The notes beneath the pieces were generated by a model, which was given only the letters and a program-made list of their open reading frames with translations, did not search any database and was not told where the DNA came from. A program made the translations under genes and the position numbers. Source: Debaryomyces hansenii CBS767 (lineage: Eukaryota; Ascomycota; Pichiomycetes; Serinales; Debaryomycetaceae). From it: a stretch of 64,000 bases of DNA. Below are positions 10,259-16,138 of this stretch, piece by piece (position 1 is the stretch's first letter; each line of letters begins with the position of its first letter). The stretch spans positions 744,001 through 808,000 of the forward strand of contig NC_006048.2 of NCBI RefSeq assembly GCF_000006445.2, written 5' to 3'.

Positions 10259-11488
10259 CTAATCCAAAGTGACTTTTAATTCTTCACTTGTCAAAGGTCT
10301 GAAGGATTGTAAATCACCACTCGACAATTTCAAGCTATCCAAGGCAAATTCAGGAATCAAGATGTGGTTCAACAGCGGGTCGACCGACAATTCACGATCG
10401 TCGAAATCGAACAATTGCGGTAAGTCCCTGATATCAGGCTGATTGTTGAACAACTGATAATTGGCGTTATTGTGATGGTTTAAGTTTCCACCGGTGGAAT
10501 TTTGATGATATTGCTTGGAAAATAATTTTCTATAATTTGGTAGTTTTGTAGTCTGATTTCTTAACTCGTTAAAATATGGATCGGCCAATGCAGTGATGCA
10601 CGAGATTCTTTCGTGAGGCGAATATTGTAACACCTTAATTAAAAATTGGATGCAATCGTTCGACATTTTCTTGAAAATTTTTTGTAATGGGATAGGCTTA
10701 ATCTGAGGAAACTTGTGCTCCATGTAGTTGGGGTTCATGTTCTTGATCTGGTCTTTCGACGGCGTACCCAAGATCTTGATAATCTCGACTAACTGGTCAA
10801 TACCCAGCTCGCCGGGGAACAATGGCTGGCCCAAGATCAATTCAGCCATGACACATCCTGCCGACCACACATCGATCTTGGTGGTGTAGTTGGTTGCACC
10901 AAAGATCAATTCGGGAGCCCTGTAGTATCTCGAGCAAATATACGACACGTTAGGTTCTGCTGGATTCAAGATCTTGGCCGAGCCAAAGTCGCACAATTTC
11001 AACTCACCCGTCTCGGGGTTAATCAACAAGTTCTGAGGCTTGATGTCCCGATGACAGATTCCCTGAGAATGGATGTAATTCAACGCCCGCAACATCTGGT
11101 ATGTGTACAACTTCACTTCTAACAGCGGCATCGACAACCGCTTCGACACATAATAATGGCTCGCCTTGTACAATGTTTCTGGCACAAACTCCAAAATCAA
11201 GTTAAGGTACAACTCACTCTTGTCGTTGTTCGTGTAAAAATAGTACTTCAAGTCCACAATATTGCGGTGATGTACCAACTTCATGATCTGCAACTCTCTG
11301 TTCTTAAACCGCTTGTCTTGCAACACCCGCTTGATAGCCGCTATCTCGTTAGATGGCAAGATCTGCGTCTCGAACACAACTCCAAATGACCCATGGCCCA
11401 CCATCTGCGATTGGGTATACTGGATCGTCTGTAACTCACCGGTGTGTCCGTTATTCACATTTTCGGTTATGACCTCTATTTTTGACAT
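10259..11488 (-). CDS. RIM11: Glycogen synthase kinase 3 homologue (Rim11/Mck1/Mrk1 group)
   Basis: A GSK-3 type Ser/Thr kinase that acts in meiosis, pH and stress signalling in yeasts. Visible motifs: glycine loop [26 protein letters not shown], catalytic [14 protein letters not shown], and the hallmark activation loop [21 protein letters not shown]. The invariant block [17 protein letters not shown] is also present. From the ATG at 11488 the protein is 409 residues. That ATG lies between a perfect TACTAAC (11492-11498) and a TAG acceptor (11476). The first codons may therefore be intron, with translation starting instead in the upstream exon at 13249, giving about 680 residues. Both forms may exist. 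RIM11 is the best single name; the paralogue is uncertain. Confidence 0.93.
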
Positions 11489-12423
11489 GTCGTTAGTAAT
11501 TCGATTCCCGTCTCAATGGTATTATAATTATTATATTATTATCACTATTTCAGTTGAATGTTCGATCTATGGAATTGGTTATGCTTGTCACTCAGATGGT
11601 TCTTCTGTGGCTCTTTTATGGTGTATTCAATGCTATAATTTGCTTTTCCAAAAGACTACTGATTCGACGTCAACGGTAAATAGTGAAATAATGATGATTA
11701 TATTTGGTTGATCTACTATGGAAGGTCACGCATTTGCCAACTTGTGTTGAATGAGCTTTGAGGAGTATTGGTTGTGGGCACGACACGACACTATTTCACG
11801 AGTAACTTGCTGGCATGGCACCAACGCTATGTTGCTTGCTATTGGACACTGCAGTGCATTGCATCATCAGGACCGACCACCAATGTGTGCTGATAGTTGG
11901 ACTGATGGTAAGTCCCGCTTCATTCCTCGCTAAACCTGCTCTGGCCAACCCCAGGTTTCGACTGCAGCCTGTCCCTCCGAGACACGACGAATACCGCTGA
12001 GCGGCGGACATCGGAGTCGAAGCGAGGATGCGTGTTTGTCGTCGGGCACACACCGCACCTGTCACGGAAGACCATGACGACCTTTTCAATACCCGGCGAC
12101 GTCATGGAAGAACCATGGAAACCTGGGGTCGACCTGCACACAATGTAGAGTGGTTTTCAGTAGTGTGTTATGCTAAGGTGTAGTGTATGCGTAATGTGGT
12201 TGGTTTCTGTTATGGTTATGGTTTATGTTGTGGTGTAGTGTATGTGTAATGTGGTTGGTTTATGTTATGGTTATGTTTATGTTGTGGTGTAACCGTGATT
12301 CAGTGCCGTGTTTCTCCGTTGGTTATATGCGTCAATTCTTACAATTCATTCCTCAACTCATTCGTAGTTGTCTCTAATTCGTAGTTATCCATCGTAGTCA
12401 AAATATTCTCAAAAAATACATAC
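11476..12423 (-). other. Candidate 948-nt spliceosomal intron between an upstream exon and RIM11
   Basis: On the minus strand a perfect GTATGT donor begins at 12423, a perfect TACTAAC branch site is at 11498-11492, and the first AG after it is the TAG ending at 11476, 17 nt from the branch adenosine. Removing this segment joins the G left over from the upstream frame to AG of the RIM11 Glu codon, giving GAG and keeping the kinase frame. PEX10 in this window uses the same signals. The segment has no usable long frame. Its middle (about 11750-12130) is distinctly GC-rich for this genome, and it holds a two-copy 55-bp repeat. If it is not an intron it is the intergenic region and promoter of RIM11. 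Confidence 0.55.
12177..12290. repeat. Two-copy tandem repeat, unit 54-55 bp
   Basis: Two head-to-tail copies start GGTGTAGTGTATG at 12177 and 12232 and differ by a few substitutions and one deleted base. A third copy begins at 12286 and decays at once. The G+T-rich plus strand is unusual for the window. It lies inside the candidate RIM11 intron. Confidence 0.8.
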
Positions 12424-13249
12424 CTAGATTGTCAGTATACTTCTTGTTCGTCAACTCATTAATCTTCGTCTTAAAGCTGTGCAGCTTGGGTTTCTTGCGG
12501 GTCGTTGTCATCGACGACTTCGTCTGGTCGTACGACTTGCTCAACGTCAAATTGTTGTCATCACTCGATTCGTCGTCCAGACGGCCTTTGATAAAATTCA
12601 TCAACTTTCCCGCAATCGAGTTCTGGCGATGTGTTTTCACCGCACTCGTAGTGGGGTCGTTCTCGATCAATGTCGACTGGTTCGAGTCAAATGGGTTGCG
12701 GAAACCCATATCATGCTTGGAGTGATGACGTGAGTATCCTTTTAAGTTCCCTATCGTCGACTTATACTCGTGTTGGGTGGTATCATGTGGCCCCTGGCCG
12801 TTCATCACCCCCACGTCTTCGTATGGCATCTGACGGGGTCTCCTCGTGTCCTCGGTGCCCTGTTCTGGCCTCGATGCTCGTCTCTGTGTAGCAGCTCCGT
12901 TGCACCATCTATTTGCCACTGGTTCCCGTTTCCTTTGCAAGTTTTCCTGTTCTCTAATTTGTTTTTGCTCCCGCATGTATGCCCGCTTGAGCTCCTTTAT
13001 CTGCTCCCGTTTCTGCTCCTTGGTCAAGTGATCGTTCGCCTTGGCATAGATGGGCTTATCGGCTATCATTTCCTTAAGATTTGGCGTCGCCAATTCGTTG
13101 TGTATAAATTGAGGGTAGTATTTACGTACATGAAACTTTTTCTCCAATTCGTCATAGTCTATATTACGTATAAAATCTTCATCTGTTGGTGGTCCCAACG
13201 AGTTTAATGAAAGCTTATTAATTCCTTTGCTAATTATGGTCGACGTCAT
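12424..13249 (-). CDS. Unrecognised basic, coiled-coil protein segment; probable first exon of RIM11
   Basis: An open frame starts at an ATG at 13249. Read without splicing it stops at 12398 and gives 283 residues, which I do not recognise. Spliced at the GTATGT beginning at 12423 it contributes 275 codons and continues into the GSK-3 kinase. Visible features: a conserved-looking start with LEKKFHVRKYYPQF near residue 40, a Lys/Glu/Arg-rich helical stretch (about residues 75-110) likely to form a coiled coil, a charged low-complexity middle, and a basic end with TTRKKPKLHSFKTK. Codon and base composition is GC-richer than its neighbours around 12700-13050. It could instead be an independent small gene. 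Confidence 0.6.
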
Positions 13250-13375
13250 ATTGAAAATATACTATTTTTGCTATACAAAGCCAAAATTCGAATCTTCGCT
13301 TGAAATTCTTATAGAAATCATCAATATATATATATGCGGCAGAGGGGAATTGTGGAGAACTTTTTTTTTTTTTGT

Positions 13376-14347
13376 TCATTCTATACACGTGAGGATTTCT
13401 TTAGCAGTAATTCTTTCATTACCCTGATAAACCATCATCCTGTCAAAGATACGTAGCATGTTAGGGTTATCACATCGCGGTAATAGCTTATCACTTGGTA
13501 CCCGGGGCTTTTCTGTGAATTTGAAACTGTTAAAATGGCTCAGTGGTCGATTAGCATCGGGCCAATAGAGTCGCTTATCAGAAGCATCACTCGTCAGGGG
13601 AGTACCAAAGTTCAGAAATATGGAACTGATAAGCGTCAAGTCGTGGAAGTTTCCTTCCTCATCTATACACGATTTTCCGGTTGCTGAATACAACAATGTG
13701 AGCATAATACCCAACGACCAGATATCGATGGCTTGCGTGTAGTCCGCCATGCCAAAACACAATTCAGGCGCCTTGAATATGCCGGTGGATACATCTGTGT
13801 ACTTGGAGTCCATAGGTTCATCAGAGGGGGGGTCTCTCGTATTGTATATAATCCCGAAATCCCCAAGAACCGGAGGCGAGTCTTCGGACTCGAAATACAC
13901 GTTTGATGGCTTAATATCGCGGTGTATTATACCTTCATCATCATGGAGGTACCTAAGGGTACTGGCTAATGTGGAAATGATGTTCTCTACTTTGCTTGTT
14001 GGAAATTCGTTGCGATAGTGGATAATATTATTGGTAGGATCATCGAGGTTGAACTTGACCCGCTTCTTGGTACACATTTTGATCCATTGATCTAGATCGA
14101 ACAGATAACATGGTGTTACCAATACTATATCATCGCCATGTGTATACAGGTTTATGAATTGTAGTACTCCTTTATTATGTATTCTTTGTAATGTGGTGAT
14201 CTCCCGCCTTATGTCGTGGGGTTTCATACATAAATCAACATCCACTACCTTCAATGCCACTATATTTTGGCTTTCACGGTCAATTGCTTTATACACGATT
14301 GCATTAGGTCCGCTATATATTGTCTCCTTGGTACCGTATTGGTTCAT
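13376..14347 (-). CDS. CAK1: Cyclin-dependent-kinase-activating kinase Cak1
   Basis: A 323-residue monomeric kinase that phosphorylates the T-loop of Cdc28 and other CDKs. Catalytic motifs HRDIKPSN and DFG (in LGDFGIIY) are present. The glycine loop is degenerate (YSGPNAIVYKA), which is a known trait of Cak1. The block EPMDSKYTDVSTGIFKAPELCFG is almost identical to the activation segment of S. cerevisiae Cak1. The frame extends five codons further up, but the first ATG is at 14347. It lies between RIM11 and SSN3, all three on the same strand. Confidence 0.9.
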   Translation of the reverse strand: MNQYGTKETIYSGPNAIVYKAIDRESQNIVALKVVDVDLCMKPHDIRREITTLQRIHNKGVLQFINLYTHGDDIVLVTPCYLFDLDQWIKMCTKKRVKFNLDDPTNNIIHYRNEFPTSKVENIISTLASTLRYLHDDEGIIHRDIKPSNVYFESEDSPPVLGDFGIIYNTRDPPSDEPMDSKYTDVSTGIFKAPELCFGMADYTQAIDIWSLGIMLTLLYSATGKSCIDEEGNFHDLTLISSIFLNFGTPLTSDASDKRLYWPDANRPLSHFNSFKFTEKPRVPSDKLLPRCDNPNMLRIFDRMMVYQGNERITAKEILTCIE

Positions 14348-14719
14348 TAGGCAATTACACACTGAAGAGGGCGTAGTAACTTTTTATTATACAAGATTTA
14401 TGTGTCGCGCAGGGCATCGATTTACTTTCATAGAAACTACAGTACGACTATTGATATTTTGTGCAAGTATTGTATTTACAAACAGCCCACAAAGCAATTC
14501 TTACTATAAACTACGTATTGAGGTATTTAAAATTAAGCTTATACATGAAAGATGTTTTAATTTGCTCTACTCTTGTCATTATGCAAAAAAAAAGCCCTGA
14601 AAGAAGTGTAAAATTTTCCCTTCTAGTTACTACAGATCTTCTTAATTAGATGTACTTACGATATACTAAATATGGACGATCCAAAGCTTGAGGTCCAGCA
14701 CTAGTACATATTATCAATC
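14348..14719. other. Intergenic region, SSN3 end/CAK1 promoter
   Basis: 372 bp, AT-rich, between tandem minus-strand genes. It should hold the CAK1 promoter and the SSN3 terminator. I see no RNA gene or repeat. Confidence 0.5.
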
Positions 14720-16138
14720 TTACCTCTGTCTCTTTCTTGTCATGTTGTCATCATAACCATGTCTTTTGTTGTTAACATGTTGCAGATTTGATACAATATC
14801 GTTTTCATGAGTATATATCCTTCTCTTTGGATATTTTTGGCTTAATCCTTCAAAGGAATTTTCACTCATCTTGGGCAACTCTAAAAAGAACGCATGTGTT
14901 AGCGCATCGTCAGCAGTTATCCGTATGGTTGGATCATACTCTAACAAGCACCTTAGCAAATTTAAACATTGTTTGCTGGTTCTTCCAATTAGCTTATACC
15001 AACTAATTAAGTTTGGTGGATAAGTATTAGAGAAATGTTGTTGAAATGCTGAATACTCGGGGTATTTAGTGATTGTTGGCCAATTCTTAGTTGTAGGAGT
15101 CCCTAGTACTTCAACAATTTTCTGTAATTGATTCTTTTGGAATGGGACCAGTTTCTTATTATTCATGTCTATTTTTGCTTCCTCTCCTTTAAAGATTGGC
15201 CGCAATGACAACAATTCCGCTAATATACATCCTACGGCCCACAAATCTATTGAAGGCGTATAATGTCTAGCACCCAATAATAATTCAGGAGCTCTATACC
15301 AAATGGTCACAACCACTTTATCTCCGGTGTAGAGACTTTGCAAAGGGTTGTTAAATTTTCTTGCCAAACCCAAGTCACCGATCTTCACCACTCCTGAACT
15401 TGACACCATGATATTGGCAGGCTTTAAATCTCTATGAAATATCCAGTTCTTGTGTAGGAATGTGACACCATTTAAGATTTGCCACGTTATTGATTTGATA
15501 GTAAAGTCTGGTATTGGTTTAACGTCTGGATGCGAATGATACTGAATAATTTGCAATAAATCATGTTCACAATATTCAAATACCATATAAATGGATTTAT
15601 TCTCTAGCAATATATCAACAACTTTAGTTATATTCTTATTACTTAGCTCCCGACATAGAGACATTTCTCTGATAGCTGATTGCGATATACCAGTATAATG
15701 AATAACCTCATTCCCGTTGATATCATGATTATTCTTATTCAGATGGTTATCGCTTTTGAACTTCTTTATAGCAAATAGTTGATTTTTATCTTCCATCAGT
15801 TCATTGTTTGTTTTTTGGAGGCCTGCTTCCTTTTGACCGTTTCCTATGCTTATCACATTATCATTCATTAATGCAGAGTTGGAATTCAGGTTTCCATTCG
15901 TTTTAGATTTAGCTTTGTAGACTTTTCCATACGTTCCTGCTGCAATATAACCAATTATTTGGTACTTGGTTAGAACAGATTCTCTTATTAAATCTTTCCT
16001 ATGTTTATACGGTCCGATAGTTAATATGGCATTCAGTGCCATCAAGGCTGGCTGGGGAATCGTTGGAACGCCATTTTTTGTTCTATTCGAATGTGATGTT
16101 ATATGATTTGCATTTCCAGGATTATAACCGGAATTCAT
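14720..16138 (-). CDS. SSN3: Cyclin-dependent kinase Ssn3/Srb10 (Cdk8 of Mediator)
   Basis: Kinase of the Mediator Cdk8 module, which phosphorylates the Pol II tail and gene-specific factors, mostly to repress transcription. The 472-residue protein has the glycine loop [10 protein letters not shown], a PSTAIRE-like helix [14 protein letters not shown], catalytic HRDLKPANI, and DLG in place of DFG, which is normal for the yeast orthologue. The segment [22 protein letters not shown] is diagnostic of Srb10. A Gly/Asn-rich insert of about 50 residues separates the glycine loop from the catalytic lysine (IKKF), as in other fungal copies. The C-terminus is basic. S. cerevisiae SSN3 (YPL042C) adjoins MRX11. 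Confidence 0.95.

Follow-up and report, generated by a model that had tools for sequence, protein, structure and literature searches.

A hidden first exon very probably lengthens the GSK-3 kinase of Debaryomyces hansenii by about 275 residues

Does the GSK-3 gene of Debaryomyces hansenii CBS767 begin at its kinase frame, or does an upstream frame, separated from it by a gap, belong to the same gene? The question is raised by a 64-kb stretch of the 12.18 Mb, 8-contig genome (assembly GCF_000006445.2, contig NC_006048.2, positions 744,001 to 808,000 of the forward strand; hereafter the window), in which a 283-codon frame (13249-12398) is followed by a gap and then by a 409-codon GSK-3 frame (11488-10259), all on the minus strand. 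We judge it highly likely that both frames belong to a single two-exon, two-start GSK-3 gene, in which a hidden first exon very probably adds about 275 residues to the kinase. The kinase frame matches Pfam Pkinase at 4.6e-63, and its best solved structure is 4e7w, Glycogen Synthase Kinase 3 (E 4e-143), with two GSK-3 stretches both aligned. The proposed layout, in window positions, is as follows.

13324..13334, minus strand: TATATATATAT, possible TATA element of the long form, ending 75 nt upstream of the exon-1 ATG
12424..13249, minus strand: proposed exon 1, 826 nt (275 codons plus G), conserved N-terminal GSK-3 extension without a Pfam match
12497..12535, minus strand: codons 239-251, SYDQTKSSMTTTR, with 7/13 positions identical in 16/16 aligned sequences
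12418..12423, minus strand: candidate 5' splice site GTATGT; (L/I)GMYF is the readthrough in most unspliced protein models of relatives
12398..12400, minus strand: stop TGA, which ends the 283-residue frame if the intron is retained
11476..12423, minus strand: proposed intron, 948 nt, phase 1
11489..11730, minus strand: ATG-free stretch of 242 nt, spotted post hoc, which may hold the leader and promoter for the short form
11492..11498, minus strand: candidate branch site TACTAAC, sole copy in 12500-11300
11486..11488, minus strand: putative internal start codon of the 409-residue short form, intronic, between branch site and acceptor
11476..11478, minus strand: candidate 3' splice site TAG, containing the first AG past TACTAAC, with 14 nt from TACTAAC to AG
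10259..11475, minus strand: exon 2, GSK-3 kinase, stop TAG included

An earlier note on this DNA had drawn attention to GTATGT at 12423, TACTAAC at 11498-11492 and the first AG thereafter, ending at 11476. All three are present as claimed on the minus strand, GTATGT also being single in 12500-11300, so that GTATGT, TACTAAC and YAG together provide the sequence signals of a D. hansenii-type spliceosomal intron. Reading of the frames also bore out that a phase 1 splice leads into the kinase frame (G + AG = Glu) and that ATG 11488 falls inside the intron. The spliced frame encodes 680 residues, while without splicing the kinase frame encodes 409 residues from ATG 11488 and the upstream frame 283. 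The short form would start with ATG TCA AAA ATA G, all of which is intronic except the split codon.

A protein search with the 283-residue frame (E <= 1) retrieved 12 proteins, one of which (P0001, 99% identical) is this species' own and differs at two CTG codons only, the remaining 11 being from relatives; the nearest named relative is Debaryomyces fabryi (79% identity). The two CTG codons, at 12578-12580 and 12482-12484 (exon-1 codons 224 and 256), are Ser in P0001, which fits a yeast that reads CTG as Ser. All 12 proteins align as far as (L/I)G(M/T), for which P0006 has LSM; past this point they diverge into tails of 2-76 residues, alignable beyond their first few residues only among the closest pairs. 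Readthrough of G|GTATGTAT gives GMY and that of G|GTACnT gives GT(Y), the relatives having been compared as protein. A genuine C-terminus would be expected to be kept; conservation ends instead at the 5' splice site, short of the stop codon, which argues against a separate protein. Residues S239, D241, Q242, T243, S245, T248 and R251 are identical in 16/16 sequences of the joint alignment, and the motif that they form, S[YF]DQT[KR]SxxTxxR, begins 25-37 residues upstream of the junction. Each of the 16 exon-1 sequences has L, I or V just ahead of the junction, with the proviso that the cut in the 12 unfused sequences was set by a pattern requiring L or I, which all 12 had. Exon 1 has no credible match in Pfam or the PDB. 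AlphaFold gave a mean predicted local distance difference test (pLDDT) score of 54.0 for exon 1 and 60.3 for the fused Candida anglica protein described below, and the N-terminal arm is accordingly modelled as largely disordered. The alignment behind the fused model included rows with exon 1 alone, and their tails may have been placed wrongly against the kinase; for this reason neither AlphaFold model was taken into a fold search.

If exon 1 belongs to the kinase, the two should be found joined in some relatives. Used as a query, the N-terminal portion of the kinase yielded 1833 proteins, the best 120 of which were combined with the window's own kinase (121 in total), and a profile of exon 1, built from 12 trimmed sequences, matched 4 of these 121, each fused to the kinase.

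P0036: Candida anglica CAAN1_01S13652, fused, profile E 7.7e-43
P0043: Diutina catenulata DICA4_D11012, fused, profile E 1.2e-32
P0023: from a 2259-base Joint Genome Institute (JGI) contig, fused, profile E 4e-11
P0032: Scheffersomyces coipomensis, fused, profile E 5.9e-9, with no more than about 85 residues ahead of the kinase Glu

The N-termini of these four predicted proteins scored 33.8-139.7 bits, against a maximum of 9.3 among 1000 shuffled N-termini, with a profile-profile probability of 99.9%, and in each of them I or V closes the exon-1 part, immediately before the kinase Glu. P0023 has no Met at its start and is therefore probably incomplete, and the remaining 117 kinases, many of them too short for a fusion, are uninformative on an upstream exon. 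The fused Diutina kinase can be compared with a second record carrying the short frame (P0051): 22 of 397 kinase positions differ, 21 of them as S vs L, as expected from CTG read as Leu, so that both records represent the same kinase. The sequence before the junction Glu is KKPHKI in P0043 and MYQT in P0051, and one kinase with two upstream sequences is the outcome that an intron produces. In addition, P0008 (exon 1) and P0033 (kinase) each come from a contig of 4807 bases, which suggests that the two are linked in one more relative. The roughly 680-residue spliced kinase envisaged in the earlier note is thus supported by four predicted fused proteins and by an exon 1 that stays conserved as far as the splice site.

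Whether a short kinase is made as well depends on ATG 11488. Among the 40 kinases listed (P0014-P0053) 36 are unfused, P0014 being this species' own, and Met lies exactly 4 residues before the junction residue in 29 of the 36, mostly as MSKI, a count that is not independent proof given that the kinases are mutually related and that ATG-favouring programs called the short frames; in the relatives, moreover, this Met was placed from protein sequence. Six other short kinases have Met at -2, -3 or -5, and P0038 has none. Directly ahead of the junction, 35/35 short kinases carry I, V, T, P, L or S. Each of these residues can be encoded by NYA, the codon that a YAG acceptor demands, and is compatible with splicing.

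The same residues could be explained by constitutive splicing only, in which the long kinase would be the sole product, ATG 11488 would be unused and the MSKI frame would result only from a 3' intron end that is A-rich and, by chance, in frame. A YAG acceptor suffices to account for I, V, T or similar residues before the junction, and gene finders prefer ATG starts, but the Met found at the same distance in so many short kinases would be unexpected unless the start is used. The 240 nt before 11488 hold no ATG, as is the case in 1.6% of sampled window segments, and the long 14-nt distance between branch site and acceptor is the room that a start codon would need. We consider constitutive splicing alone unlikely. 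As Met recurs at a fixed distance, the long and the short form both look real, and the 409-residue internally started kinase of the earlier note is probable on this ground and from the lack of ATG in the preceding 240 nt.

How would the short form be produced? Regulated intron retention would require a single promoter, with the short kinase translated by reinitiation on unspliced RNA, and most alternative splicing reported in hemiascomycetes is intron retention in S. cerevisiae, according to PMC2911113. The kinase ATG of the unspliced RNA, however, is preceded by the 283-codon frame and, between 12423 and 11734 on the minus strand, by 13 ATGs; reinitiation is hence unlikely, a short form made from long unspliced RNA likewise, and an internal promoter is favoured. 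We regard intron retention as improbable. In the preferred reading of one gene with two starts, a promoter upstream of 13249 would give a pre-mRNA from which the 948-nt intron (12423-11476) is spliced out, yielding a 680-residue kinase whose mostly disordered extension bears S[YF]DQT[KR]SxxTxxR. A second, intronic promoter would give an mRNA that starts downstream of the 5' splice site and so cannot be spliced, and translation from ATG 11488 would produce the 409-residue kinase, in which MSKI replaces the 275-residue extension.

Besides the two limits on the methionine count, several points weigh against this reading, and they bear in part on a different one, namely that there are two unconnected genes, one for a small protein whose frame stops at 12398 and one for an ordinary 409-residue GSK-3, with splice-like motifs present by chance. 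The motif triad by itself is only suggestive, being moderately beyond chance: the window holds 1 join of this kind, and permuted motif pairs (n = 400) gave a mean of 0.18 per window, with at least one join in 54/400. The earlier note was wrong in likening the spacing to that of a PEX10-like intron at 44376-44287 (followed by a frame matching Pex2_Pex12 and RING), in which TACTAAC and AG are 8 nt apart as against 14 nt in the GSK-3 intron. The 14-nt gap is unusual, falling outside the 5-10 nt found in 88% of D. hansenii introns, whose branch consensus is TACTAAC (PMC2483917); this distance is a customary and not an obligatory feature. In Debaryomyces and Candida, to whose GSK-3 gene models the earlier note had pointed, the protein recorded for C. 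anglica is fused and that for D. fabryi is a separate one of 284 residues. A search by exon-1 words for proteins of 376-1197 residues carrying exon 1 found none, from Debaryomyces or elsewhere; as a negative it carries little weight for distant relatives, since P0036 was missed despite the strong profile match of that protein, and it suggests that the searched collection holds no assembled long Debaryomyces transcript, since one should have matched. Finally, neither the core of the Ndt80 site (CRCAAA) nor TATAWAW occurs on either strand of the intron (12423-11476), which leaves the internal promoter with no positive sequence mark.

As the motifs alone are not rare enough, it is the comparative protein evidence that decides on the intron. 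Conservation that stops at the 5' splice site in 12/12 proteins, the fusion in four retrieved proteins and the Diutina pair that differs upstream of the junction all speak against two separate genes, which we hold to be very improbable. The conservation of exon 1 to the splice site, the fusion in relatives, the recurring Met, the frames and the signals are all sequence-based observations, and from them we infer that the intron is used in this species and that an internal promoter probably exists.

A GSK-3 with such an N-terminal extension had been unfamiliar to the earlier note, which holds for the exon family but not for the layout. The GSK-3 family gene MRK1 of S. cerevisiae has an N-terminal exon and an intron with its own transcription start site and in-frame ATG, and its short isoform was detected by western blot after Ndt80 induction, as described in the MRK1 passages of Zhou, Sternglanz and Neiman 2017 (PMC5685637). 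According to the same passages the MRK1 intron is confined to closely related Saccharomyces, and a passage of PMC4202332 places it among potential gains. Judged by its sequence signals, the D. hansenii gene resembles MRK1 as portrayed there in that exon 1 is an N-terminal extension, exon 2 the whole kinase and the in-frame ATG intronic, but its short form would have 4 intronic residues instead of 11, and its intron lacks the Ndt80 core under whose control the short form of MRK1 is made. Ndt80 control as in MRK1 was rejected for lack of a site. New are the exon family, which lacks a Pfam match, the finding that several CTG-clade yeasts have it, and the correction of the gene model. Among the titles listed from the literature searched, which mostly excluded subscription journals, none was on a long GSK-3 of Candida or Debaryomyces.

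The extension may have a regulatory role, which we consider plausible from two precedents. In metazoan GSK-3 beta, inhibitory pSer9 in the N-terminal arm enters the primed-substrate site (PMC3953950), and in S. cerevisiae Rim11 earlier work, as cited in a passage of PMC11294583, suggests phosphorylation of amino-terminal serines by PKA, with lower kinase activity as the result. Like GSK-3 beta in that account, the extension has a predicted disordered pre-kinase segment with a conserved Ser directly followed by an aromatic one (RTTpSF in GSK-3 beta, S[YF]DQT in the extension), and like Rim11 as cited there it belongs to a GSK-3 kinase, the amino-terminal serines being the suggested PKA targets in Rim11. 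In contrast to the pSer9 site, Arg is found at -3 of the Ser in only 4/16 sequences and Lys in 1 more, neither being present in this species, whereas the Ser itself is kept in 16/16. A wider proposal, which we put forward tentatively and think rather unlikely, is that CTG-clade yeasts obtain two GSK-3 enzymes per gene by promoter choice, a long one with a switchable autoinhibitory or docking arm (S[YF]DQT[KR]SxxTxxR) comparable to pSer9 and a short one that is constitutively active, in a layout either convergent with Saccharomyces MRK1 or ancestral to budding yeasts and lost in most Saccharomycetaceae.

The Debaryomyces models of GSK-3, a kinase central to signalling, appear to lack the conserved extension, which is filed as a separate unknown protein; those of other CTG-clade yeasts probably lack it likewise. 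If both forms are made, a single gene yields one kinase that has a regulatory arm and another that does not. The layout also bears on the MRK1 intron, described as Saccharomyces-restricted, which may have been gained, may be a relic or may have arisen by convergence, as one of two such cases.

The intron has no Rfam match at the gathering score or at E up to 5, and no second copy in the genome. Its GC-rich block (about 12134-11900, minus strand) is predicted to form several hairpins closed by a long stem, with a folding z of -3.4 on the transcribed strand (200 shuffles) and -0.77 on the other; with 40 shuffles z is -2.4, and 4/266 background window segments are equally low. We do not claim it as an RNA gene, since z is within reach of background segments. 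The sequence TGACGTCG, which we take to be CRE/ATF-like, has 3 copies in the window, each of them at the GSK-3 locus and on its minus strand: at 13248 (over the exon-1 start) and, within the intron, at 12104 and 11672. A further possible intron lies at 4337-4069 on the minus strand (GTAAGT, AACTAAC and AG; 269 nt, 5-nt branch gap), with 8 codons before it and 104 after. GSK-3 is one of three consecutive kinase-like genes on the minus strand (10259-16138), the other two lying at 13376-14347 and 14720-16138, and the GSK-3 query matches these at E 5.8e-12 and 4.7e-29, respectively.
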